A model generated the notes under the pieces. That model saw nothing but the letters and a program-made list of their open reading frames with translations, did not search any database and was not told the origin of the DNA. Shown piece by piece: positions 3,022-39,330 of a stretch of 45,104 nt of DNA; positions within the stretch are counted from its first letter, which is position 1; each line of letters opens with the position of its first letter. Origin of the DNA: Halocafeteria seosinensis. Lineage: Eukaryota; Sar; Bigyra; Bicosoecida. The stretch covers positions 1 to 45,104 of the forward strand of contig LVLI01000145.1 of the NCBI GenBank assembly GCA_001687465.1, in the 5' to 3' direction. Made by a program: the position numbers and the translations under genes.

Positions 3022-6000
3022 TCATGTTTGGCGTTTGCCCAGTTCTCGTAGGATGTAGTCCACTCCAAAATCAATTTGAGCTTTACGAGTCTGCATGTCT
3101 CTCTTCAGTTGATCTGGGAGCGGGAGGCCACTTCCTCCTGTAGCGTGCTTGGATTGGTACTGCGGTCCCAATCCTGCCGATTTACCTTCGCGGAGAACTT
3201 TGTTTGCAGCAACTTGAGCTTGCGCTGCCGCCACAGGGGGTAAGCTTCTAGTTCCAGTAGTAGTTCGCGTTTGCCGTTTTCTCCCTCGAGAAATATCCGC
3301 TCGGGAAATACCGGCACCTCTGTGTGTGTCATCCACAGAGATAATTCCGTGATGCAGTAATTCCGCCGCAGTTTTCTCATCCAAATACGATTTCGAGCTC
3401 CTGGCTGAAGGCTGAACGCTAACCTCCTCCGCTTGTTCAGCATCACCAGAAGCGGAAACGTTGTGTCTTCCAGCAGAGATACTGCTCGATTGAACGAGCC
3501 TTCTTCCAACTGTCCCAGGGACGTGACCCTCATCAAGGCGGGCGAAGCACCCGAAGGTGTTCGTTTGGGATGTACCCCCATCAACAGGGACGGAGGATGA
3601 CGACATCGCTTTCTTCGATACCGCCAACGCGGGAGGTTCGAGTACTTGTGCAACTAGTTGCCGTAGCTGTACTTCAGGTAAAGTCCTTAGCTCGTCATAC
3701 ACAGAGTAATCGTTCTTCCCTGTAGCATGTTTAAGCACGCTTTGCTTAGACTTTGAGGTGCTGGTCTTGCTCTGGTTTTGGTGGACGATTTCTGAAGCAT
3801 AGGAAGCACCTGTAACAAGGGCAGCAAGATACTCGTTTGGAACAACATCAGGGAACGGGTCTTCTCCATGGTTACTATCCACACTCCCCGGAGTTCGCCG
3901 TATTGAAGATTCCTCGTCACTCGATACTTCTAGTTGTTCCGATGAAGCCTCCTGTTGCTCTGGCATTGAAACAGCACTGTCCTCTGCGCTTGCGCCTTTA
4001 AACCCATAGCCCTGACTTATTATGGAGGCGGCGCTCTGCTTTAGAGAGTTCGATAGATCAACACTCTCGTGCTTCTCTCTGGATGCCTCAAGAAGTCTTT
4101 TCGCAAGTTGCCTTCCCTGATATTGCTCTGATTTGGTTAGTCTGGTGGTACGTTCCCTCTGCTGCCTCAAAGTGGGAGAATATGTCTTGTATTCTGCAGT
4201 ACTCGCGGTATCCTGCTTAGCATTTCGAACAATTTTGCTTCCCGGTAATACCAAAAATTCTGGAGGGAACCTTATGGGCGTTTCTTCTTTGCAGCTTTCT
4301 ACTGGCTCTTGTCTCTGATGGGCGGCAAGAGGTAAATGTTGTCGCAAATATCCAAGTTTGTCGGATCCGGTAGATCTGCTAACCATTTTGCTTGTCTCGG
4401 AGCCTCCTACATATTTCCGCTCTTGCTTTTTCTTCTCCGATGGTGATTCCACAGCTTCTCTTTGCGGGAGTTGCATGATATGTGGGCCTGCAAGCCTTCC
4501 GGACATTGGATCGCACATGGACAGATCAGACTTCCTAATAAATAAACTGTCTGTTTCATCCCTGATTGACGAGAATTTCGGTGTCCCCTCATCATCACTA
4601 TTTTCCTGCAAAGCTTCCTCCACCAAGACGGAGGACTTAAAGAGCGTTGATTCCAACGAATTTTCATTATCCACAGTCTCGGTAACCGCCGGTAATTGAG
4701 GAACATTTTGTCCACCCTCACCCGAAGGTTTTTGCGATCCATCTTCGGAAGCCGTCGCCGACGAACGGACGGACTGCCTGCGGGACATTGACCCTTTACT
4801 GGACCTGCGAGAAGACTTCACACTCTCGGTCTCCTTGCTTCCGGTTTCTTTTCTCTCAGTAAGGAACTCTTCTGATACGCCTTGATGCTTTGCTACACTC
4901 CGTTCGTTCTCGAGTGGAGGAAAGCATATGTGAAATACATCCGTTACCTGAGCGAGTCCCATAGAAGGAGTCAAGCTAAAGACTAGATCCCTCGCATTTG
5001 CGAGAGCTTGCCTGTCGCGCCATTTGTACAGAAAATCCGGATCATTGTTATTGATAGGTTCGTCTTGAAGAGCATTGCCTTCTCCCAAGAGTAACTCTTG
5101 GAATTCTTCCTGCGTAAATTGCCTCCAGGGATTGGGGCGATACGACAATGCTGATTCCGATTTCCCAGAGGGATGACTCGTCAGGGATTGCTCTTGCATC
5201 CTCTGCTGAAGCATTTCAACATAGTGCTTGTAAAGCATAGCAACGTTACTCATCAGCGGATTAGAATAGTTCATGGATGGAGACTGTTTGGATTCGCCTG
5301 ATGACACCTTCGCGCTAATAGAGCTTAGCCTTTTCGCGTTTTTCTTAATCAATGTACTTGGTTCTTCTACGTATATACCTCCCATGACCACAATCCTCTT
5401 AAAGTCGTATTCATTTCGAATGTCCTGCTTGTCTTGGAGTGTTGCCTTCTCGATGACCAGCGTACCGTCCTCTCTTCGTTTTAGTCGATGTGCTCTGCTG
5501 CCTTTAGCGGAATACATGCTTCCCCATCCAGTGGGTGGAGCGGGAACGGATCCATCTTCATTTTTGGTAGACGGTTCAGGTTGAGACTGAGGATCATTAC
5601 GTCTCCGTGAACAGAAATCGCGCAAGTCTTGCAGACGGGATTGTGGGTCATCGTCCGGATCTATTAGTTCCGCATGGGGACCCGGAAAGCCATCCATTGC
5701 GCTACGTAGCATTCGGGTTTCCTGCTGCGTCAGTCCAACGCTGTGCATGATAAAGTAGTAACGGGGCCAAGGCAGGTATTCTGACTCTTCACACGCTACA
5801 CGATGGGTTTGAGGGTGATCAAGAAAGTGCTGTATGTCCTGTTTTCGTGAACTGTACTCGGCAGGATCTGAGCTAACGCTCACTGGAGACATATCCTCGG
5901 GGGTTGCCGGTACCCAGTTCCAATGGTATTGCTCTGCACGAACCGACATAAGCTTTCATGCAAGCACGCACGACGCAACATGGTGGCGACCTACCTGTGT

Positions 6001-7696: not shown

Positions 7697-8260
7697 CCTC
7701 CTGGGACCCTCCAAACGTCTCTGCCAATTCCTCGCGACGTTGAGGCCTTTTTCGAAGACGTCAATGAGTTCCCACTGTAAAATAGCCCCTCTTTCCCTAA
7801 ATCACTGCACTGGGTCCACAGTTCACTTCTGAATGGCTCGATCCTGTCAGTTGCGACGAAAAACGCGCGCTGCGAACCGCCGCCACCAATAAACACTGCT
7901 TTCAAAAACCACCCGAGCAAAGTTTCAAACGATTAGGAGCTCTCATTTCGTGCCCAACCACAATCCAACGGGATCTGTCATATTTCGTCGAGATACAGAC
8001 AGCCCTTGCACGTGCACGAGTGCTTCACAAACCCGTCAGTTCGCGCGCTGGAAGTCGCAACTTGTCCCACAAACACAGTCGTCTCTAGTCGAATGCGAAT
8101 TGTTAACAATACATATGCCCACACAGTGGAAGAAAAGAACGAATACGGGAGATCCGACAATTATGACGAACCATGTGCTCTGGTAGAGCGCAATGTCGGA
8201 AGTCGTTGAAGTAACGTGGTAGAGGACGTGCAAACCATACTTTAGCACATTGGTATAGTG
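7697..8260. promoter_or_regulatory. Shared 5' region of two divergent large genes
   Basis: These 564 bp separate the start codons of the kelch gene (minus) and the unknown large gene (plus), so the region must hold both promoters and both 5' UTRs. I see no clear TATA element or other known motif. Short reading frames here lack coding character. An untranslated first exon of the kelch gene is possible, because TTTTACAG at about 7780 on the minus strand looks like an acceptor. Confidence 0.45.
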
Positions 8261-11200
8261 ATGTCGTCGTCTTCTAGTGGTGGTGCTGATCGTGCAACGA
8301 CAGCCAAGACTACGTCATTTGCGGATGATGTGCTCATGCGAGAACGGTCACAAGACATGGTCTCAAGTGCTGCGTCCACACGTAAGACGCCGGTGCCGAG
8401 TAGTTCCTCAGCCTCAGGGGCTCGAGCCACTTTCGCGGATGACCATGATAATCTTGAAAAATCGTCTTCGGAGAAGTTGCCGAGCGCTAGCAAATCGTCC
8501 CTGGCATGGAAGCTGTATCGCAACAAAAAAGCTGGAGTTCCGGTGGATAAAGCTGCATCGAATGATGCTCGGACGTTATCGTTACCGGAAGAAGACTTTC
8601 CAGTGCCGAAGAATGTGATGGCCCGTTTGAAGAAGAACTCCACCCACAAACATTATTCCCGAACGGAAAGCAGGCCGTGGTATCGTCTCCGATCGATGAC
8701 GAGTGCCCCCATGGCGTCGAAATCCCTGGACCTTCCCCTCAAGTGGTATGGAGAAATCAAAAAGGAGATACACTTGGATTTCTCCGGTGGGAAGGAAGAA
8801 TCAAAACTATCGCTCACAAAAGAATTTTCTAGCGTTTGGCATGATTCGTCTGTAACCGAAAAGCAGCGTCGAAAAGTGAACGAGCTGTTTGACAATTCAG
8901 TTCGGAAAAAATCGGCCGAATACATTGATTCAGCTTTTACTTCGGACACTTACGAATTTCAGCGAAGGATTGTTCCTTCTAAAGAGCTCGTGTCCGATAC
9001 ATTGCAGCGACGGAAATCTGAGCAGGGAATTGCTCAGGAGCGAACCAGTGCGCGAGGAAATATAAATACCTGGACTCTAAAATCGGATTTTACTCGCAGA
9101 CAACAGAGTGCAACTACTCAGTCTTCTTCAGGAACCTCTCGCCCCGAAACTACGTCAACACCTGGACGATCAAGCGATCGTGCAACGATTGAGCGTAATA
9201 ACGAACATAGGCTGCGAGATCCTAACGTGAACCCTTTCGCGTGGTCCCATGCTCGGTCTGTAATAGACTTGTGGGACATATGCCTACATGACGAAAATTA
9301 TCGTCAAATAGGCATCCGGTCCTCAACTGACGAAGGCAGTGCTCCCGCAGGCTCAGGAGCAAGTAGTAGTGGTGGCGGAAGTACGGTGATGCACAGCAGC
9401 ACTGCTCAGCTCAATGATTTTCCAAAAGCATCACTGAATGTGAGAGTCAACGAAGTACCCAACGTTACTTCTAGTTCCACCGACGGTCAACCCCAAATTG
9501 AAGTGCGTTCCGAAGAGGTTCAATCAAAGGTACTTTCGCTAGTGGCGGATCACCGTTTCAAGCTGGCTATGGTAGCGGTCGACTTTGACGATGAAAGCGG
9601 CACCGGCCACAATATTGCGCGTGCGTTGGGTGCTGATGAAGAACTGTTTCAAGGAGCAGTTGCGGCGAAAACATCTGTCCAGGCTGATAATCAGCAAACA
9701 AGCGATGGCAAAAAGAAACCAAAGCAATCTGGAAGCAAGAGGAAGCCGGTTAGCCGAAGCGGTGTGAAAATAAAAAATAAGCCCAAAACTCCGGATTACC
9801 AGAAGTATAGCTCCGGAGATGAGAAAAGTACTTCGAGGATGCTTCATCGAACTGACATACTGAAGGCGATGAGAAAACAGCAAGACCAATTAGAAAGCCG
9901 GAAAAAGCTAGCGGAAGATATAGAGCAGAAGGCAACCGACTACTGGAAGCGATATCTAGAGCGGTTTCAACGTAAAGACAAACGGCTGCCTTCCGAGGTA
10001 GACAGTTTCTTTTCCGAACTCCTGGGAAAGTCGTGGACTAGTGCCAGCGATGCCAACCTAAAACGCAAAAATTTGCTATCACAGGAAGAAATGAAATTTG
10101 TGAAATGTTTGACCTACTCCCGAGACAATGAAAGCCTTAGTAAAATGGTCCATGAAGCAGAAACGCTGCTGGAGAGATATTATGAATACGGAGAATCTAT
10201 TCACCCTATTGCCAATACCAAGCATGAATGGTACACAGCGAGATCGGCTCTCATGAATCTCAAGATCGATTTCCAATTCATATCTGCCAAGGTTTACCTG
10301 TCGGAGTTCGAGTCTCCCTTAAATACCAAAGTAAGCAGTGTAACAATCTTTGCTTTAATTACGCCCCAGTCTTACTCTTTAGGATGAGTGCTCCGCAGTA
10401 CCGACTAAGTCGAATTTTACAGGCAAAGTACAGTCTTTTGGATCATCCTTTGAGAATATTTTCGATGCTAGTTCTTCATCGTGTAAGGAACTTCTAGGTT
10501 GGAATTCCGTACATGTACCTATTGTTACACATTTCCCTTTCCGCCCAGGTTCTTGAGAAACGGATATATGCAGTAGTCAAGAGACTGAGGGAAAAAATGG
10601 ACCAATGGCAGAAATCCAGAGTCCTTTCAGAAGGGAGTCTACATTCTCAAGTAGCATCGAAGATACGCACAGCAATTTATGATACCATTTCTTCTACGAA
10701 ACTAGATTCTGTTTACCAGGCTATTATCGCTAGAGCAGTCTCAGTGAGCAGGGCGCTCTACCGTGGAGATAGTATGAGCAGTGCCTTAGCATTTAACAGA
10801 GAGAGTGCCGAGGACGTCGTCGAGGAAACTCCTCCCGAGCCCACCTCTGAAGAAAAGTCCAGCAATCAATTAGGGATCTTGCACGTCTGGGCATACGCCA
10901 ACATTGACGAAGAGTTGGATATTATTGAAGAACTAGACAAGGGGTCTTCCTTCGAAACTTTCACTGCCTGGCAGATACAGGCGAGCACACAAGCCAACAA
11001 AAAGACAACACCTAAGGAGGACTCTTTCTCGGATGTGGAAGCTCGAACTGTTCAGCAGCTAGGAAGGCAAAACGAACCGAAACCTAAGCGTGCTAAGAGA
11101 ACCAGCAAGTTTGACAACAAACCTTGGCGAGAGCAGCCAACATACACGAAAAAAATGGGTGCCGCGTCATCCACTGTATTGCGGAGCACTAGGTCCGCGT

Positions 11201-13215
11201 GTACGGTATCGAAAGCTACACAGCTAGATGACGAAGCCAGCCGGTTTTTGAAGAATTTAACCCTGTCAAAGCATCTGCTTCATACGAAAGACGAAGAAAC
11301 TGTTAAAACTGCAACAGATATAGCCGCCGCCTGGTATTACTCTTTGCGCCCTCAAGCCTCCCGTAAATTGCCAGGATCCAATAAATCAAAGAGCGAAAAA
11401 ACAGTTTTCGAAACGAGAAAGAGGAGCGGGCTTCTATCTAGCACCGATAGCTCCCGTGGATTTTACTCAACGACAGTCACTCAAAGTGACGAAGCAATGC
11501 GAGACTTTATACCCCGCCAGCATTGGTCTGTAGAAAGTCCATACGTAGGGGCGCCGAGCACTGTAAAAGGTAAGCAACAGTCGAAGCAGGGAGCAAGTAG
11601 AACACCGGAAGCCTCCACAGAACAAACTCGCGCAACACCGGAAAAACCTTCGGAGAGCTTAGATCAGTCTCTGGACAGGTTTAATAGAACTCTTGAAAGA
11701 GCATCCTCGGGACTCAATGCCACACTTCCGTCGGTTCATGAAGTGCAACGACAATGGTCTGCAGGCAGCGGTGGTACATCGGCGTCATCTTCGAAGTGGA
11801 CAAACAGGCGCTCAGCAGAGCACGCATTTACACAGGCATTACAAGAAGCCAAGCGTGAAGCTCCAGAGGCATCAGAAAAAAGTGATGATCTTGGTTACTA
11901 TCAAACGTCCACGATAGAGCATAGTGGCCGGGAAGAATCAGAGAAAGAACTCCCCGCTAACGTTGGACTTCATGAACCGCTATCCCATAGAAGCACTTCA
12001 TTTCCCTCATTTGAAAGTGTAGAGAACATTGACGAACCTGTTGAGATACAATCCTCAGTAGGTCGTCGAAATCGCTCACGAGATCGACACGGAGCGACTC
12101 CTGGTGACAACCAAGGGAGCGTACGGGAAGATATGGGAGAATCCCGGACTGAGGTCAGTCAGCAACTCGCAGATGTCGTCTCGAAACTTACCATCCCCCC
12201 AAGGGTTTTCAACAAGCTGCTCAATTTGATAAAAGACGATATGGGAATGGAGCAGAGCGTTGAGCTGTCAGAAGAAGCTGCGGACCTTAAGCAAGAATCA
12301 ACTTCTTCTTCGTTGAAGAGTCTTCTTACCGTTCGTGACTGGAAGGAACTGCTTTGGTCGGTAGAGGCCTGCGGTGCGACCATAAATGCTCTTGACATGG
12401 CACTGGAGGAAACGGGAAAGATGATTGAAAATAGTCAGGAGTTCTCGGCTAATCGAAACCCGGCGGAGTTCATTAATCTTCGTTCCAAAGAAATCCCCTC
12501 CGATCTGCTACCTCAAAGATTCCTTCAAGACCTGCGAGATCGAGGACTAATGTACAAGGAGCCGCCTCAGACCCTGTTGCCTCCGAAATCCGAGGTGATG
12601 AATGTATTGCAACTTCCCAAACGAGAGGAAGATGTAGACGAGTTGTTGGATACCCTTTCCAAGGGTATTAGCTCCAAAGCGAGCGAGGATGTGCTGGCGC
12701 AAACCAAACAGTCGCCTTTGGAGGCTAAAATTGACCAAATGTTTCACAACGCTGCGGATGCTTTGCAACGATTACGAAATCAGCGAGAGAACTTGGGCGG
12801 CCGTTGCCGGGACGTTCGATTGCAACGTCAGTGGTTTGAAATTGAATTCTTTCTGCGAGAAGTGGCTAAAGTACTAGTTAATTACGCGCATTCAAAGTAT
12901 GAAGGAATAGTGGACATAGTCGGAGAGGAGAATGCCAAAGAAATCTACCATAAAGATATGGAACTATCATGTAAAGATGTGATAGATCATTTGAACAGTC
13001 TATTGGAAATGCGAGAGACGAAGTATCAAGTGTTCCTGCGGGCGACAGCTCCAACGTCATACCATCGAATGAAGCATGGTGGGGAAGGTCAGGAAGAAGG
13101 CATCGCGGATACGGCACCGCAGGATGCCACCATGGCAGCGGACGGGAGCCCCAGCAATACCACAACTGTAGGTTACAACCAGAGTGAAGATGAGCCCCCT
13201 CGAGAGGAAGTGTGA
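8261..13215 (+). CDS. Large protein of unknown function, Ser-rich with charged helical segments
   Basis: The model is three exons (8261-10330, 10399-10482, 10549-13215), 1606 residues. The middle 28-codon exon is fixed by phase: it joins ...SPLNTK to YRLSRILQAKYSLL and then to VLEKRIYAVVKRL, whereas other acceptor choices run into stops. The ATG at 8261 follows an in-frame GTG. I recognise no family. The N-terminus is a Ser/Ala-rich disordered stretch. Charged helical segments occur around QDQLESRKKLAEDIEQKA and DALQRLRNQRENLGG and could form coiled coils. The middle contains many basic patches (KKPKQSGSKRKPVSR), which might be nuclear or microtubule-binding, but this is a guess. It is transcribed divergently from the kelch gene, so co-regulation is possible. 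It ends 140 bp before the stop of the convergent gene at 13356. Confidence 0.75.
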
Positions 13216-15834: not shown

Positions 15835-17167
15835 ATGGCGTCGGATAATAGTCAATACCAAGAGGATAAGAGCCATTATCCTACCCGGAGAGAGGCCATT
15901 CTGAAGCGCCGTGTGGGGAATCCCCTGGATTACAACAGCTATATCAAGGTCGAGGAGGTACGATGACAATATTTACCGACACATGGTGGTACTCTAGTGT
16001 ATACTGCGTCTCTATGTCATGCCAATGCAACGCAGTTGGCTAATTTACAGCACTTGGAGAGCGATAAAATCAGTGACTGGCCTCCGGCACACGATGAGCA
16101 CTTGTTCATTGTCATCCATCAAGTGTACGAACTGTGGTTCAAACAGATGCTGCACGAGATCGACTCCATCCGCAACATCTTTCGGCAGTCTCATGTGCCT
16201 GAAAAAGACGTGGGATTGGCAGTGCACCGTCTGACGCGTGTTACGGAAATTCAGCAAGTATTACTCCAGCAGCTGAATGTTCTTGAAACAATGACGCCGG
16301 TACGTCTTTTTATGTGTTGTTGTGCCATTACATTGCAATAAAGTAGCGATGGAGATATATATACAGCTGGAGTTCTTGGATTTCAGAGACTATTTGTTCC
16401 CAGCCAGTGGCTTCCAAAGCTGGCAATTCCGCATGCTAGAGAACAAACTTGGTCTTAAGCGAGAACAAAGGCTGAACTACGGGAAACGAGACTATCTCTC
16501 CTATCTGGACGAACGCATTGGCAACATGGTCAAAGCGTCGGAAGAAGAGCCTTCACTTCATGATCTTGTGGAAGACTGGCTTGAACGTACCCCGTTCCTG
16601 AAGTTGGAGAGCTTCGAGTTCTGGAAGCATTATCGCCAGGCAGTGGAGAAGATGATCGCGAATGAACGAAAGAGTATCGAAACAAACAGTCTAATTTCCG
16701 AATCCGACAAGGAAGAACAGTTGAAAGAGCTGGAGGGCCAAAAAGAACACTTTGAATCGCTCTTTGACAAGACGAAACACGAAGAGCTGCGGGAACAAGG
16801 GAAGCGGAGTTTCTCGTTTGAAGCCCTTCAGGCAGCTCTCCTCCTTACTACGTATCAAGATGAACCTATACTTCAGTTGCCTTCGGCACTTCTCAAGAAG
16901 CTATTGGACATGGATGAATTGTTGACTACCTGGAGATATCGTCACGCATTGATGGTCCATCGTATGATTGGAGTGAAAACCGGTACTGGGGGTAGCAGTG
17001 GGTTCAGGTATCTTCAAGCCACTGTCGGCAAGCACAGGATCTTTACGGATCTCTTCAACCTGTCAACATTTTTGATACCCCGAGCAGATTTACCGCAGCT
17101 TCCCAAGGAAATTGCCGACCGCATGAATTTTAAGTACGATGTTGAGCGTACAAGTGGTCACCACTAA
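15835..17167 (+). CDS. TDO2: Tryptophan 2,3-dioxygenase
   Basis: Three exons (15835-15957, 16036-16299, 16367-17167) give 395 residues, the usual family length. The enzyme is a heme protein of the cytosol. It opens the indole ring of L-tryptophan to N-formylkynurenine, the first step of the kynurenine route. Diagnostic segments are [33 protein letters not shown] with the distal substrate-pocket His, [23 protein letters not shown] with the substrate-binding Arg, and [10 protein letters not shown] with the proximal heme His, followed by [13 protein letters not shown]. The first intron acceptor at 16035 was chosen over an earlier AG because it restores both frame and family alignment. No other kynurenine-pathway gene is adjacent. 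Confidence 0.95.
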
Positions 17168-30966: not shown

Positions 30967-33900
30967 ATGTCTCTGTTTCAAGCCCGCGAGTGGTGGGGTA
31001 CGACACAGCAGGACGCTGCAAAGACGTCCCCAGATGAGCAGGATGCCGTCGAGACATTCTCATCCGGCGCGATGATCTTGTCGAATATCGACAATGACCC
31101 TTCCGACAGAGGTATGATCTTAACGCATTTTGGCTTATTCGGCTCTGTACAGTGGTTGTTTTACGGTCAAATTCCGCGGATATGGCGTGTATGTACGTGG
31201 TTATACAGTTAAAATTGTCACTGGGAGCCACAAGGGCATACTTCGTGTATTCGCGCCGCGGCAACGAGAATTCCAGGTGGACGACTTGTTGCTGGAAACG
31301 TCATTGGAAGACTCCCAAGGAAATCCGGACCCCATTCTACAACTAGCTTCCGGACGATTTCTTAGGTACGGTTTTCGGGTTTCTTGCCAATCATTCTTCA
31401 TTTGGACCAGTTACGAAGTTCTATGTTTTTCCGCAGCAACGGTGACGGAAATGCATTAGCCGTCTTGCAACCCAAAAGCCTCCGTGTGTATGAATTGAGA
31501 GGACAAGGAGGTGGTGATGCAAGCGCACCGAGCTTCCTGCATTTAACCTTGGCATATAAACACACGTTTAAAGGAGGACAACTTCAACATTTCTCGCCCT
31601 ACAACATGTGCTTCGGGCCCTTCGCCGGGGGAGGTCCTTTGCGTAAGTAGAGATTGAACGCCTCTGTTAGAACGGGCATATTAAAATTTGGCGACTTAAC
31701 TTGTTGTACGCAGGCAAAGACAGCATCTGTGTTCAATCGATGGATTGCCAGATAGCTGTTTTCGAACAAGATAAGCTCGTGTTTACGAAACAGCTACCCC
31801 CAGACATTCATTTACTTCCTGGGCCGGTAGCGTATCTACCAAGCAACGATTCATTGGTGTTTTCATCAACTGACTTGTGTTTGTGCGGGTATAAGTAAGT
31901 TTGGTGACTCGGTGATATTGCTGCACATGAAGGTATTCAAACGTGTTCTTCCTTACTCTGACAGATACGAGAATCTAACAAGTGCTGCTAGTGCTACCCA
32001 CAAGACTCCAGGACAAAAGTCTACGAATAAGGAAGCAGGGGGTAATGCTCCTGAGCTGGCTTCTGATTGGTCAATTTTGCTAGGGGAAGAAATAAAAGGT
32101 CTAAACATAGGACGCTACAGTTCCCATCTTTATCCATCCCAGTTCGAGATCTTAGCAATTACCGACACTGGCTTCTTTGTCATCAATGGTGACAGAGCGA
32201 GTTCCTGGAAGAAAAACAAAGATGTTTCTGAATCATCGGGACAACACTCTCCATTGAAGATGCAGAAGCGTTTGAATTATCACCCTTGTTCCGCTTGCTC
32301 TTACGGAACAAGTGGGCCATACGCCGGTAGGCAGATCACCGATCATGATTCGGCTAGGGCTGAACGACCTCAGAATATAGTTATTGGAAACCACGCCGGT
32401 ATGATAGAAGTCTATGGATCGCATCAAGTTCTTTGGGCCGCAAGAACGCCTATTCAACCAACTGTTGTTAGTGTTGAATGTTTCGGGGACCTGCGAGGTC
32501 TAATAGCCATGATGGACAGACATGGAACACTATCAGTGTGCTATCTGGGCACTGAGCCGCCTACAGGAGCGGTAGGTGCCTTGGCTGGTTCTACGAAGCC
32601 ACTAGATTACGTAGCAATGGACGAAGAACATAGGCGGCTGCTTAAGAAAATCCGTGAGGCCCAATCAGAGAATAAGTCAACTCAGCGTAATAAACTGACA
32701 TTGCGAGCGGAAGTACCGACTCGCTGCGAATACGGCTCTACTGGTAGCTCTGCAGAACAGGGGTTCTCGTCCATGAAAATTTCAAATGCATCCAGTACAG
32801 GGGATGTGCTCCCAAGTATCTGTGTTGCACTGCAGTTAAGCTACAATGGGTCTGAACCGATAAATAACCTTTCTTTAGCCATCGAGACTCCCATTGGCAT
32901 TCGACCTGAGCAATCCACGTACTTAGTGGAAAGACTTGCCGCTGGTGGAACAAGGACAGTGGATATCGTTTTCCAAGCCCTTCGCCAGGGGATTCCGCAG
33001 TCTCTGAAAGTAGATGTTACGGCATCCTACCAGACCCAGCAAGGGGAACCACGCATATCCCAATGTATGCTGGAACTACCATTTGCAATGGCGTGCCGAA
33101 TTGTGCGTCCCATAAAGAACCCAGTGTACAAACTGACGATCAACACGAATCAACCGCCGCCCCCTGCTCTATCTTCGTTTTTCCAGGACATGCTTGGTCA
33201 ACGATGTCTTTCGGATGACGAACGGACAGCGATCGAACAGGCTGGAGTTCATGTAGTCTCTCTCCGATACTACTCTGGTGCCGATGTTTCTATCCTCGTA
33301 TCTAAGAATGCGGGTAGATACCGAATCCAAGGAGGCATGCTAGAAGCTCTGTGGCTAGCGGCGACACAATTAGTTACTCGTTTGGAGAGATATTTTAGTT
33401 CCGCTGGAGTTAGTAGTGGAAGTACCTTAGAAATTTCTTATGATGAACCACTGCCACTTGCTGATTTTTTTCGGTACATCGACTCGCACTTCTCTGCCAG
33501 GACCCAACTAGCCTCCCTCCGTTCTCAATTAAACGACAGGGCGGCACAATTCCGATCTGTACAGAAGCGGCTCCTAGTGAGATTTCGGGATAGGAATCCG
33601 GCCCCATTGTCGTCGTTAGACAAAATGTTAAGCTCTACACACGAGGAGCTTGTTCAACTAGCAGACAAAGCAGAAGAGTGTTACTCTTCTATAGCATCTT
33701 CTCGTAATGGTCTGCAATGCGTGATTCGCCTTGTAGCGCTGTTAATTAAGTTGAAATATCGGATGCCAGAAGACGATTACAATGTGCTCAGTGATCATCT
33801 AATGCCCCAGGTAGAAGACAACAATGAGCAAGGTTGGGAAGAACGGTGTGATGCAGCCCTATCATACTTCTTACGAAACTACTTAGGCGTACCTCAACAA

Positions 33901-34020
33901 GCTCGTGCTTCGAATCGAGTCGAGTTGCCCGCCGATACTTCAGAGTTGAAAAACCGTATTGCCATTCTATGCGATAAACTGGACCGGCTAGGAGGTAAAT
34001 TCGAGTCGCAAACAAGCTAG
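30967..34020 (+). CDS. BBS9: BBSome subunit BBS9 (PTHB1)
   Basis: Five exons (30967-31111, 31209-31365, 31437-31642, 31714-31894, 31965-34020) give 914 residues, close to the human 887. BBS9 is a scaffold subunit of the BBSome, the coat complex that moves membrane proteins in and out of cilia. The match runs end to end: MSLFQAREWWGTT against human MSLFKARDWWSTI, IVTGSHKGILRVFAP (first beta-propeller strand), KDSICVQSMDCQIAVFEQDK, ITDTGFFVI, a central beta-sandwich region, GRYRIQGGMLEALWLAA, AAQFRSVQKRLLVRFRDRNP and WEERCDAALSYFLRNYL near the C-terminus. Every exon junction falls in conserved text. The stop is 60 bp from the stop of the convergent kinase gene. Confidence 0.95.
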
Positions 34021-34080: not shown

Positions 34081-37000
34081 CTAGCGACGCCGCCGACTAA
34101 GATAGGAGTGAGCAGCGGTAGCACTAGCTGCGGCTGCTGCTCCTGGCGCCGTCGCCATGTAACTCTGTGGGTCTACCCCGGCTTTCTTGGTCTGTTTCTT
34201 GGTTGCTTTTGAGATCTCAGTTTGGATATCTGTCACCGTTTGCGATCCGACTCTTATGAAGTAGGTCTGGTATTTGCTGTTAATTTTAAAGGGCGTCCCT
34301 ACTTCAACAGAATCTTCTTTGATAGCATGTTTTTGGGTATTCACCGTTTCGGCATCATATCTGCGTATCGTTCTCATTCGCAGCACTTGACAAAAATGCA
34401 ATGTCCGAGAGCTTTATTCTATCGGGACGCTTGCTTACCGTTTCGGCATCGGTGTCCACATCATGCTATTTTGCCTCCGCGTCCAACCGGCTTCATGAGC
34501 AGGTGCAACAGAGCCTTCTTCTAAAGGAGGAGGAGTGTGGCTGTACAACTCTGAAGGCTCCGCTTTGAGAGCTGTAAAGAATGGATGAGCCTGCAGCAAA
34601 ATACACTTCGCTAGGTCGACAGTACTACGTATCCAGTACTCGTCCAAGGTCTGCGTACCATTACATCTGTCATACCATTCTTTGCGCCAAGTCTAGTACC
34701 AGGATTGGGGTCTAAAAGCGAAGAAACCAGGTCCTTAACCTGCGGGTCAATATCTTCTGGCCAAAACACTGAAGACGACGAAGCGAATGTTACGCCTGTT
34801 CCTGAACGAGCTTGTGCAGATTGCTGAGCAGTATTTTTGATAAGCTCGAACATCTCATCTTGTGACTCAGCCCAGAACGGAGGTCGACCAGTGACGCAGA
34901 AGTATACAAGACACCCCAGTGCCCACGCATCCGATGCTATCGACGGGTTTTCTCCCGATAACAATTCAGGGGACATATATGCCGCTGTTCCTTCAATGCG
35001 ATTGTCTCGCTGACTGTACGATGCGGAGCCAGCTTCTACCAGATGCTCTGATGAAGCCGCTTGTGAGTCTTCTGCGTTCGACTGGGGGTCTCCTGAGGCT
35101 GTTGGTTCGTCTTCGGGTCTGGCAGGCCTCAACCGTTTGCTATTAGCTTGTTGCATTTCAGAAAATTTTTCAAGTTGCTCTTTCGAGTACGCGGCCCTCC
35201 AATCACCATCCTTCATGTTAGAGATAATATCACTAACCTGATCAACGAGTTTCGTGGCTGCCGAAGTGATAGGACGCACGCCCCCAAAATCAGTGAGCTT
35301 CGCATGTCCGCTTTGTGTAAGCACCACATTTTCAGGTTTGCAATCGCCGAAGGCAAACCCTTGCTGGTGGACAACATGCAATGCGGCCGTAATTTCTCCG
35401 GCGAGAAACCTCGTAGACTCAAGAGCTAAGGATCCAAGCCTCGTTACATGCCCGTGTAGATCCCCTCTAGATCCGTATTCCAAAACCAAATATGCTCCGT
35501 CTTTATATCTGAACGTTGCAATCAGTCGGGCAATGCTGGGGTGCTTTGCTCGGGATAGAATAGTGACCTCCCTACGGATACTTATTTCGTATCCTAGTTG
35601 CCTTATGCGGGGAGCATCAATAATCTTGACCGCGTACTCCGGCCATTGAGAGGGGCTGAGACCCCTCTGGATTAGTTTGGCGTACGTTACTATACTAAAT
35701 GACCCTTCACCCAACGTGTTGCCGAATACTAGATCGTGAAATCGTAGTTCCGGAATGATAGTTGGGGAAATTTCCATGGAGTCGTATTTCTTCGATAAGA
35801 AGGTAGTTTTGGGGTCAGATGAGTCCGCTGCATGGGGACTAGAATCAGAGCTCCACGAAGAATCCCGGTAAGAGTCTTTATCAGCGGGCGTTATACTACT
35901 TAGGTATTGCTCATACCTTGGCTTAGCGTTTTCTCCCCACTCCTTTGTCAACACTCGATCAAACAGCTGTCCATTTAGTTCCTCGAGAGAATCCAGAACA
36001 TTTCGTGTCATTTTATTCACGGTGAAACTCCAATGAGGAGTTCCTCCTCGCAGCAAACATGGAACAGCTTCAGTTATGAGAACATTGCATAGCTTCACCT
36101 CCTTCCCTCTCACAGATATGGTGGCCGACTCATCGGCCAAAACATTTAAGAGCGTTTTATTGCTAAAAAAGAGAAGAGATCTTTCTGCAATTCGAGAAAA
36201 TTCGGTCGTCATCGTCCGCACGAGTATGGGCAACACGATATGGAAGTCCGAGGCAAATTGACGAGGAGATTTTACCCTCACTGTGTCTTCCATGATTTGC
36301 TCCACCTCGTGGAGCAGCAACACCTGTTTGGGACTGTTCGCACTCTGCTCTCCGGGCCAAGAGTCTACAAGTTGAGTAAGGAAGCGCGGGACGAGATCAG
36401 GAAATTTCCTCAAACTTCTCAAAATGCAAACGCAAAGTGGCTCATGAAGCAGCTGCAGAAGGGGCTGCATGTCGTTAATCATCACGTTACTACCATGAAG
36501 TGGGAGTAGTATAGAACTCAGAAGACCTCTAATTATATCACAGTTGGAATCATCCAGACTGATGCCTTCGATTATTTTCCCAAGCACACGTAGGGAAGCT
36601 GAAATATTCTCCGCCAAACTCTGTAGCAGGTGTTGTTTCCATGGGGCGCCCACAGGCTGGGCTGACGGAAAGTTGTGCTCAACGCTATTTTCTGCTGCCA
36701 ATAGACCCGTCGAAAGGGCGGACCTGATAGCTCTTCGCAGTTGCGGGAATTGTGCATACATCCAATGAAGTATGTTTTCCAGGAGTGCTCGTTGTTGTGG
36801 CGTATGGACCATGAAGAGTAATGTCTCCACGAATTGGAACGGCATGACGTCACCGAAAACATGTTGCGCTATGTCAGAGGAATATTCCGGATACTTCCCA
36901 ATCTGGTAGAAAATACTCAGGATCTGCTCAGCATCATCTGTTGGAGTCGTCTCTTTGGAAGATCCTTTGCTTCCTGGAGCTGACGTACCAGCAGCTCCTG

Positions 37001-37484
37001 GAACCACTGTCGTATATTGTCTGCTCTTGTCGTTGGAGACCGAGCCTTTCGAGGAACTTCCGCTAGTCTGAGCGAACGCTGAAACTGCCGCTTCGGAAAT
37101 CAATTCCAGTGCTCTAATCAACAAATCGCGGTGGGTTTGGTAGAATTCCTCGTCCCAATACGCGCTACCATCTCGTATTTCCTGTCTCTGTATTATCGAT
37201 TTCCTGAGCTCCTGTACATTGGAAGAGATGGAGGATTCCGCCTCTGTGTCTTGATTGTGCGTCTGTGCCTCTCCGTGGCCAATAACATCCTTCATTTGCC
37301 TCAAACATCGCCTATAAATTTCCAATTCCTCATTTTCTTCCGCTCCTCCTTGTCCATTGGATGCTCCGAGAACACTGCCGGAAGACGACGACATGTCGTT
37401 ATGATTGAGCTTCCAACCTGACTGACTCAACGCACGAAAATCGTCTTGACAAGCCATAGAAAGCATGAAATTGAATCGACCCAT
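34081..37484 (-). CDS. Fusion: PP2A B56-type regulatory domain + PDK1-like AGC kinase
   Basis: Three exons (34659-37484, 34439-34590, 34081-34360) give 1085 residues. Roughly residues 185-530 are a B56 (PPP2R5) HEAT-like domain: RALLENILHWMYAQFPQLRR, LGKIIEGISL, LLPLHGS, FPDLVPRFLTQLVDSWPG, ERSLLFFSNKTLLNVL and HWSF. Residues ~590-960 are a kinase closest to PDK1: LGEGSFSIV loop, AVKII lysine, RREVTIL Glu, DFG, GTAAYMSPE, ASDAWALGCLVYF, and RLGAKNGMTDVM|AHPFF across the first intron. B56 and most of the kinase lie in one uninterrupted exon, so the fusion does not depend on splicing. The catalytic loop reads GFAFGDCKPEN, so the HRD His and Arg are Phe and Gly, while the catalytic Asp and Lys remain. 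The DFG-to-APE segment is about 95 residues. No PH domain is recognisable. The first exon has several in-frame ATGs; 37484 is the first. Confidence 0.88.
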
Positions 37485-37827
37485 CAAACTCAAGTGTGCG
37501 AAATGATTGTCGCCTCTGGGAGAAGAAAAACTAGCAGGTTTATATATATGTATAGAATGGATTTTCAAGGTGTTTGAGGTACCTTGATGACACGAGCGTA
37601 AATCATTTTTCTCGGCTAAGACTGCATTTCTCTTGCTAGCGTACGCCGTTGTAGAGAATTAAACCCGAGACAAAATGTGTAAGTGAACGATTTCTTTGTC
37701 TCCTTTTCCCGTATCTTAATATCATGCTATACAAGGTCTTTCCCTTGCTTTTTTTCCCACTCCAAGGTCCTCATACTGCATGCAAGGCTTAAATGTATGC
37801 TATGCCTCGTTTGTGTGTGGTGCAGCA
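37485..37827. promoter_or_regulatory. Divergent promoter region, fusion kinase / sorting nexin
   Basis: These 343 bp separate two divergent start codons. The stretch TTTATATATATG on the minus strand (about 37538-37549) is TATA-like and oriented toward the kinase gene. On the plus side the ATG at 37828 is preceded by TGTGGTGCAGCA, which could be a splice acceptor for a leader intron. The in-frame ATG at 37780 is an alternative sorting nexin start. Confidence 0.4.
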
Positions 37828-39330
37828 ATGGACGAAGAAGGCGCCTCGAGCTCCTCCAAGGGTGCGGGGAATCCTCAGTTCTGGGAGTCCGAGCGCGCCT
37901 GGCAGGACCAGGTGTTGAAGGAGCACTTCGAACTCAGTGTTTCCGATCCGCAGACCAAGTCTCAGACGTTCGGCAAATCGTACACGACCTACAAGATTGT
38001 CCTGGAACGGGATGCAGGCGTCTCGGAATTGCGTCGGCGCTTTAGCGATTTTGATTGGTTGCGGCAGATCCTTCGATATCGATTCCATGGTATTGCGGTT
38101 CCATGCTTGCCCCCAAAGAAAATTGTTGGAAATCAGAACAATACATTCATTGAGGAGCGTCGCCAAGGACTGGAAAAGTGGCTTAGAGAAATTGCTGGAA
38201 ACCCATACCTTCGCAAAGATTCGACATTTTACATGTTCTTGACCACCCCAGATGCCACCGAATTCGAACAAGCGAAAAAGGCTGCTGATAATGGTGCAGG
38301 TGCTGATCCAAACGAAAACAAAGGTTTAGCTCGTTGGTTTGGTGTACTTCAGAAGTATCCACTCCCTCAGGAATACACTGCAGCGGTTGACGAAGTCGAG
38401 CGTGAGTGTAATTCGTCCAAAGAAATTCTCGAGCGAGCTGTCAGAGCGTGCAATGATTATTTCAAGGCCGCCCAGAGTCTTAATGACGCGCTGACAAATA
38501 TGCGCGAGACGTTTGAAATGTGGAGATCGTCTTCTGAGAGTTCATCGTCCCCAGTCCCGGCAGCGGCCACTGCTACTGGAGAATTGACCGAAGTGCTCTC
38601 TAATACGGAGAAGGCATTTTCTGAGGCCGCTGACCTCGCCGGATTCTCTCCTAACGAGATAAAAATGTTCCTGATGACGTCGTTTAACAATGAGCTTCGT
38701 AGAGTGAATGCAATGCGAGATTTACTAGATTTGCTCAAGTCAGCTCGTAGTGCTTATGAAGACGCTTTCGGAAAAGTCGATAGCTTGAAGTTTAAGGAAA
38801 AGCAGCTACGTAGTAAAGGAAAGATGGAGCAAGCTGATGCTTTGTCACCAAAGATTGCGGAAGCAGAAGAGATGAGAAAGAAGGCGAAGGATCGAGTGGA
38901 GGACATTACTAAAGGAATCCTAAATGTGGAGGCAGCGAAAGTTTGCCGGGCACGTGTCCAGAATCTGACTTCTACGTTCGGTCAATTCGCTGCTTTGAAT
39001 ATGGCCTCAGGAGAACGCACGCAAACCTTGTGGCAGACGTTGATGAGCGATCTACAACTTGATTCGGAAGCCATGGTTGCTCGTGCCCAGAGTACGCTTA
39101 CCGGCGACGGACTGTCTGAGACCGATGGAGGACTTCCCGGACCACCGTCCGGAACGTCCTCAGGCGGGGCTGCTGCCAGCAGCAGTACCAAACGCGACTC
39201 AGATGGTAGCGAGGAAGCTTCGGCGCCTACATTTACTGGCACATCATATTCTGGTCAGCAATCTGCGAAGGGCGCTGACGACAATGATGACGATGAAGGT
39301 GAAGATTCCCACCAGGCTGCGTTCGATTAG
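37828..39330 (+). CDS. PX-BAR sorting nexin
   Basis: A single uninterrupted coding exon of 500 residues, unusual among the multi-exon neighbours. A PX domain fills about residues 30-145: FGKSYTTYKIVLER, RRRFSDFDWLRQIL with the phosphoinositide-contact Arg, CLPPKK, then the second basic patch RRQGLEKWLREIAGNPYLR and FYMFLT. PX domains of this form bind PI3P on early endosomes. A ~220-residue helical region follows (EVERECNSSKEILERAVRACNDYFKAAQ to NVEAAKVCRARVQNLTSTFG) with the length and heptad character of a sorting-nexin BAR domain, which senses or makes curved membrane. The C-terminal ~80 residues are Ser/Gly-rich and end in an acidic tail (DDNDDDEGEDSHQ). The subtype, whether a retromer-type SNX1/2/5/6 or another, cannot be decided. 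Confidence 0.88.
   Translation: MDEEGASSSSKGAGNPQFWESERAWQDQVLKEHFELSVSDPQTKSQTFGKSYTTYKIVLERDAGVSELRRRFSDFDWLRQILRYRFHGIAVPCLPPKKIVGNQNNTFIEERRQGLEKWLREIAGNPYLRKDSTFYMFLTTPDATEFEQAKKAADNGAGADPNENKGLARWFGVLQKYPLPQEYTAAVDEVERECNSSKEILERAVRACNDYFKAAQSLNDALTNMRETFEMWRSSSESSSSPVPAAATATGELTEVLSNTEKAFSEAADLAGFSPNEIKMFLMTSFNNELRRVNAMRDLLDLLKSARSAYEDAFGKVDSLKFKEKQLRSKGKMEQADALSPKIAEAEEMRKKAKDRVEDITKGILNVEAAKVCRARVQNLTSTFGQFAALNMASGERTQTLWQTLMSDLQLDSEAMVARAQSTLTGDGLSETDGGLPGPPSGTSSGGAAASSSTKRDSDGSEEASAPTFTGTSYSGQQSAKGADDNDDDEGEDSHQAAFD

Follow-up and report, generated by a model that had tools for sequence, protein, structure and literature searches.

The bicosoecid Halocafeteria seosinensis encodes a protein in which a PP2A B56-type subunit and a PDK1-derived protein kinase are fused in one chain, and this fusion was confirmed as real. 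The gene lies in the window, that is, the whole stretch of 45,104 nucleotides that was analyzed (contig LVLI01000145.1). The architecture is conserved, the two halves were inherited together, the B56 fold is complete, and the kinase retains its catalytic residues and has lost the regulatory and docking features of PDK1. Judging from the sequences, we see an even chance that the protein, a member of a family conserved in stramenopiles and alveolates, acts as a B56-type subunit of PP2A to which an active non-RD kinase is tethered.

Gene structure and genomic context

The fusion gene occupies positions 37484-34081 on the minus strand and, according to the splice model, consists of three exons encoding 1085 amino acids (Table 1). 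The minus-strand frame 34611-37568 is open through the B56 and kinase domains without a gap; read unspliced from the ATG at 37484, it gives 957 amino acids and then reaches a stop within intron 1. The two-intron model is supported because the end of the kinase (AHPFF) and the tail WTRRQNSMMWTPMP come into frame. Pfam detected B56 at 1.1e-28 and Pkinase at 7.3e-47 in the exon 1 frame, and these two domains and no further one in the spliced 1085-residue model. The original prediction had described a B56 subunit joined directly, in one polypeptide, to a kinase closest to PDK1. The open frame and the two Pfam domains of the spliced model bear out the fusion, and the identity of both halves was upheld as well, by the B56 profile score, by the best PDB family and by the kinase tree, as given below.

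Table 1. Features of the fusion gene and of its neighbors (nucleotide positions in the window; residues of the window protein)
Feature	Position	Strand	Content and evidence
Exon 1	34659..37484	-	Encodes residues 1-942, with the B56 domain, the linker and all but the end of the kinase domain; open frame, splice model, Pfam
Intron 1	34591-34658	-	GT-AG, 68 nt
Exon 2	34439..34590	-	Last part of the kinase C-lobe (AHPFF), followed by the C-tail motif; in frame after removal of intron 1
Intron 2	34361-34438	-	GT-AG, 78 nt
Exon 3	34081..34360	-	C-terminal extension up to the stop codon; inferred from GT-AG splice model
B56-type HEAT solenoid	35892..37346	-	Residues about 47-531; Pfam, PDB match, hhalign 99.7%, AlphaFold, structural match
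LxxIxE-pocket helix region	36723..36767	-	H240 (H187), W241 (R188), Y243 (Y190), R250 (R197), R254 (R201); aligned with human B56 delta, numbered as in gamma
Linker	35757..35891	-	Residues 532-576; without PPxTxTGVAPWA; pLDDT <50 at 537-566
PDK1-derived kinase domain	34567..35756	-	Starts at residue 577, spans intron 1; Pfam, PDB match, tree, structure
Catalytic loop FGDCKPEN	35328..35351	-	Residues 712-719; non-RD; catalytic D714, K716 and N719 retained
Activation-segment insert	35007..35276	-	Residues 737-826; GDW motif and disordered stretch
C-tail motif WTRRQNSMMWTPMP	34444..34485	-	Exon 2, in frame by splice model
BBS9/PTHB1 gene	31912-34020	+	Tail to tail with the fusion gene, ~60 bases off; Pfam
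PX-domain, sorting-nexin-like protein	37780-39330	+	Head to head with the fusion gene; Pfam

Since the window contains a BBS9/PTHB1 gene, the organism is probably ciliated. A tryptophan 2,3-dioxygenase frame was found at 16322-17164 (+), and the 5' end of a eukaryotic SSU rRNA gene lies at the window edge (44997-45104, +). The last 200 bases of the window match five more places in the genome, in whole or in part, at 95-100%. Three long frames at 3022-5949 (-), 8258-10387 (+), and 10513-13215 (+) (975, 709, and 900 amino acids, respectively) had no Pfam match at E <=0.001.

The B56 half

The Pfam B56 profile scored 100.8 bits on exon 1 and 100.4 bits on the spliced model, with a curated cut-off of 25. 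The HEAT solenoid was complete in the predicted structure, in agreement with hhalign (99.7%). In the structural comparison of the whole exon, the matches listed were all kinases; therefore, the B56 part was folded separately, and the first 20 matches of its structural search were all B56 entries. Core blocks around PKEV and WN were common to the fused B56 halves and B56. Compared with PPP2R5C and PPP2R5D (PP2A B56, PR61/B'), the fused half was about 20% identical, and it differs from PP2A B56 subunits by a mostly lost acidic patch, the loss of R188 and K240, an insert of the family that follows LLPLH (aligned at window residues 331-341), and the attached kinase. A small beta hairpin at window residues 455-464 was present in both structure models. 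The B56 half diverges faster than the kinase half (median pairwise identity 0.27 vs. 0.44).

Residues of the docking groove were counted in 90 of the 93 two-domain relatives and the window protein, with human gamma numbering. The question of whether the residues for LxxIxE binding are kept, raised in the original prediction, has a divided answer for the window protein: the equivalents of H187, Y190, R197, R201, and I231 are retained (H240, Y243, R250, R254, and I304), whereas those of R188 (now W241), K240, and H243 are lost. Among rows with a letter, the window included, R197 was kept in 83/83, R201 in 80/83, and Y190 in 81/83, and the I231 position was I or V in all 89 rows. H187 was kept in 22 and R188 in one of the 83 rows with a letter, H243 in 46/90, and K240 in none. 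In human B56 gamma, H187A and R197A each abolish BubR1 binding, and R188A mostly cancels the phospho-serine bonus (PMC4930772). The R201A substitution abolishes binding of the tested phosphopeptide, perhaps via a disturbance of the fold; because R201 is described as semi-buried (PMC4930772), its conservation may be structural. At the positions of the acidic patch (E276, E310, D313, and E316; PMC7108865), acidic residues occurred in 41/91, 3/91, 14/90, and 20/81 rows, respectively. The window protein has R, Q, E, and V there, one acidic residue of four; the canonical B56 of the same genome has E, E, E, and P and likewise lacks an acid at 316.

By its residues, then, the window protein appears to have kept the core of the groove and lost its phospho-specific side, from which we infer that the groove more probably docks an altered motif than binds LxxIxE in the unchanged way. 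The stretch SPTIIPE, immediately ahead of the kinase, is LxxIxE-like but was discarded, as its spacing, judged by eye, does not fit.

The kinase half

The best PDB family by sequence was PDK1 (125.9 bits for the best row), followed by S6K (93.2); by predicted fold, PDK1 and Aurora A tied. A tree was built from 74 kinases. The 40 that belong to the family formed one clade (100/100), and this clade joined PDK1 at 99/95, with S6K and the remaining sampled kinases of the genome outside. The stem of this clade is long (1.7 changes per column), and the data do not separate a placement of the fused kinases inside PDK1 from one beside it (p-AU 0.331). Three of the 40 family rows (P0123, P0146, and P0154) had no called B56 domain. 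P0123 carries a called eIF4E domain; a gene-model error is possible.

Kinase residues were counted in 103 of 106 relatives, three being dropped, with PDK1 numbering. K111, E130, D205, K207, and N210 were invariant (103/103), and the DFG Asp was kept in 101/103. The window protein has the catalytic set intact (VAIK Lys K620, alpha-C Glu E639, catalytic Asp D714, and DFG Asp D732). The HRD histidine was replaced by Y or F in 102/103 relatives and was H in one, and no row had R at position 204 (0/104, window included), where all 22 PDK1 rows have it. At the position of T-loop S241, 80/103 relatives have R; 18 of the 22 PDK1 rows have S or T there and four have A or G. The window protein has G713 at the HRD Arg and R829 at Ser241. 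In the PIF pocket, R131 was replaced by I, V, L, or M in 103/103 relatives, while 21/21 PDK1s with a letter have R or K. With the window included, K115 was kept in 1/104 and L155 was changed to A in 66/104; the window protein has A, V, and A at K115, R131, and L155. A PH domain had no match at E <=1 in the spliced 1085-aa model, and the PH_3 search of the whole genome gave matches on four other contigs and none on C98. Some PDK1s, such as P0267, also have no called PH_3.

Phosphorylation of S241 is described as strictly required for PDK1 activity, which is raised by L155A (PMC6327997), and S241A lowers the activity of PDK1 on Akt 50-fold (PMC8986801). The joint losses in the family fit a kinase freed from both T-loop phosphorylation and hydrophobic-motif docking. 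Thus, the fused kinase resembles PDK1 in being nearest to it by sequence and tree and in its complete catalytic core, but differs in the missing PH domain, the non-RD state, the lost T-loop Ser and PIF-pocket residues, and an activation-segment insert. The best reading of these residues is that the kinase half is no longer PDK1 in function.

Linker, insert and tail signatures

Motifs were counted in the 88 relatives present in both the B56 and kinase sets. A linker motif, PPxTxTGVAPWA, was found with exact GVAPW in 74/88 relatives and in one to three copies per relative (106 copies in total; P0056 and P0031 are examples), and GVAPW occurred in 0 of 22 PDK1s. The window protein and P0002 lack the motif. 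The linker of the window protein, about 45 residues long, is short: 90 residues separate fixed motifs, compared with 87 to 343 (median 224) in 71 relatives. The GDW-type insert of the activation segment was present in the window protein and 68/88 relatives and in 0/22 PDK1s; its model has helices between 741 and 784 and pLDDT <50 at residues 782-823. The tail motif [RK]RQ.S..W was detected in 73/88 relatives. Its RRQxS part resembles a basophilic kinase site and might, speculatively, be a self-site.

Distribution and history of the family

At least 93 distinct relatives have both Pfam domains, namely 68 of the 120 matches listed and 25 from a second search; both homolog searches scored limited candidates and gave 120 best matches each. 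The named hosts are brown algae (Ectocarpus fasciculatus, Ectocarpus sp., Scytosiphon, Discosporangium, and Choristocarpus), diatoms (Seminavis, Amphora, and Attheya), and, on the alveolate side, Amoebophrya A25 and A120 and Perkinsus marinus. The lineages were checked for Ectocarpus and Seminavis (stramenopiles) and for Amoebophrya and Perkinsus (alveolates). The closest among the matches listed was P0002, with 58% identity over 94% of the query; P0013, P0036, P0128, P0131, and P0133 are transcript assemblies, judging by their names. Neither a named animal, fungus, or plant nor a named oomycete was among the two-domain matches listed. The Phytophthora infestans kinome contains many odd kinase partners, with no B56 among the accessory domains given there (PMC3019232), and the main text of a paper on P. 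sojae multifunctional proteins has no B56. The P. infestans record and the lack of a named oomycete match together indicate that oomycetes may lack the fusion.

Pairwise distances in the B56 half were correlated with those in the kinase half (76 of 89 rows; Mantel r 0.779; 0/2000 permutations as high), from which it follows that the two halves travelled together. In the B56 tree, eight rows including the named alveolates (both Amoebophrya and Perkinsus) group at 100/97. In the kinase tree, nine rows taken as alveolate, four by name or closeness to Amoebophrya and the other five solely from where they fall in the B56 tree, were not one clade; a single clade was not rejected (p-AU 0.251). The presence of the fusion in both stramenopiles and alveolates suggests that it arose in the common ancestor of the two or earlier; a transfer of the fusion between the two groups is a conceivable alternative.

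Three other canonical B56 rows stood apart from the fused rows at 100/100. A divergent sequence from contig C100 (branch 5.24) was placed next to the fused rows or within them, probably as an effect of its long branch, and because of this placement no more than 12% of bootstrap trees set the fused rows apart on one side of a branch. The C100 gene (L034 415-2538, +) has a 707-aa frame with a B56 match at residues 550-699 only (58.6 bits) and reads, by its sequence, as very divergent B56-like. It was rejected as a second fusion, since the frame has B56 only and no kinase.

Canonical partners in the same genome

A canonical PDK1 with kinase and PH_3 domains, HRD, and the T-loop serine is encoded on contig C106 and falls in a 98/96 group whose named members are four oomycete PDK1s, a placement that points to a stramenopile. 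The genome also encodes a canonical B56, and PP2A-A is represented by a 326-aa piece on C502 (best PDB match, PR65 A-beta chain, 6.6e-66). Given these three genes, the fusion is an addition; replacement of the canonical PDK1 or B56 was rejected, as both were found. The general job of PDK1 is already covered by the C106 protein.

Proposed function and alternatives

In a B56-type PP2A subunit with a tethered active kinase, the B56 half would seat in the PP2A A/C holoenzyme and would dock clients via a narrowed groove that retains R197, R201, Y190, and I231. The kinase half would be on without T-loop phosphorylation, as a non-RD enzyme with Ser mostly changed to Arg and L155 mostly to Ala. The flexible linker, with TGVAPW in most relatives examined, would bring kinase and phosphatase to the same clients, and the balance of the two activities could be set by modification of the kinase insert, linker, or C-tail. 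A fuller version, put forward only tentatively, is that the common ancestor of stramenopiles and alveolates had, and passed on to both, a PP2A holoenzyme with its own always-on kinase, one molecule that would write and erase phosphate on the same clients. These would be docked by two elements, the narrowed groove of B56 and the linker motif TGVAPW, and the molecule would be separate from canonical PDK1 and B56 and additional to them.

It is somewhat unlikely, although the strongest of the competing explanations, that the B56-like solenoid works outside PP2A as a reused HEAT scaffold localizing or regulating an active kinase. The loss of R188, K240, and most of the acidic patch, the faster evolution of the B56 half, and the insert after LLPLH (residues 331-341) agree with this, but the fold is complete with B56 entries alone among the first 20 structural matches, R197, R201, and Y190 are strict, and the core blocks around PKEV and WN are shared. 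The kinase half might instead work in the manner of a pseudokinase, as a switch that can bind ATP or substrates and direct PP2A but transfers no phosphate, as the replaced H and R of HRD (H in 1/103, R in none) and the large activation-segment insert would allow. We regard this as improbable, because K111, E130, D205, K207, and N210 in 103/103 relatives and the DFG Asp in 101/103 show the strictness expected of an active enzyme.

The original prediction had the kinase acting as PDK1 on AGC activation loops, which the attached PP2A would reverse. The PDK1 ancestry of the kinase speaks for such a role, but the family has lost too much of PDK1 for it: the HRD Arg is found in 0/103 relatives, the T-loop Ser is R in 80/103 and lost in the window protein too, a basic residue at R131 is found in 0/103, K115 is kept in 1/104, a PH domain was not detected, and a separate canonical PDK1 with PH_3 is present in the same genome. 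A true PDK1 is therefore very improbable. Hardly any weight is left for an artefact, either a read-through gene model or an assembly join of two neighbors, which is refuted for the family by the open frame without a gap and by the at least 93 distinct two-domain relatives, several of which are, judging by their names, transcript assemblies.

Relation to known systems and meaning of the fusion

The original prediction knew of no described protein with this architecture. In the open-access literature, too, no description of a B56-kinase fusion was found among the matches listed, judged by title and abstract start; yet P0137 (NCBI; 3-phosphoinositide-dependent protein kinase ... protein phosphatase 2A, regulato...) and P0155 (JGI; PP2A regulatory B subunit (B56 family)/Protein kinase domain) are database records whose names cover both halves. 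Annotation pipelines have thus already met the combination. A look-up of the architecture across protists, as had been advised, did recover the fusion; what the original prediction missed is that it is an old conserved family of at least 93 two-domain relatives.

BubR1 is a kinase-family protein. Like the fused kinase it meets PP2A-B56, but via a short motif (PMC4930772), whereas the fusion is covalent. Proteins of P. infestans and plants with kinase and protein-phosphatase domains likewise unite a kinase-like and a phosphatase-related domain in one chain (PMC3019232). Two PKG-like proteins of P. infestans are described there with an inactive kinase domain, a phosphatase domain, and cNMP-binding domains; the fusion differs in joining a PP2A targeting subunit to an apparently intact kinase.

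Our data point to an old, apparently undescribed combined kinase and phosphatase regulator and, judging by the named two-domain matches listed, to a signaling protein beyond the animal, fungal, and plant picture. The fused kinase is a direct test case of a non-RD kinase shedding the docking and activation rules of PDK1, and the strictly kept TGVAPW motif, present in most relatives examined, points to a partner. Normally, a kinase meets PP2A by way of a scaffold or a short motif. A covalent linkage of the two that is old and has been kept in brown algae, diatoms, Amoebophrya, and Perkinsus would be evidence that opposing enzymes can be wired into one stable part.
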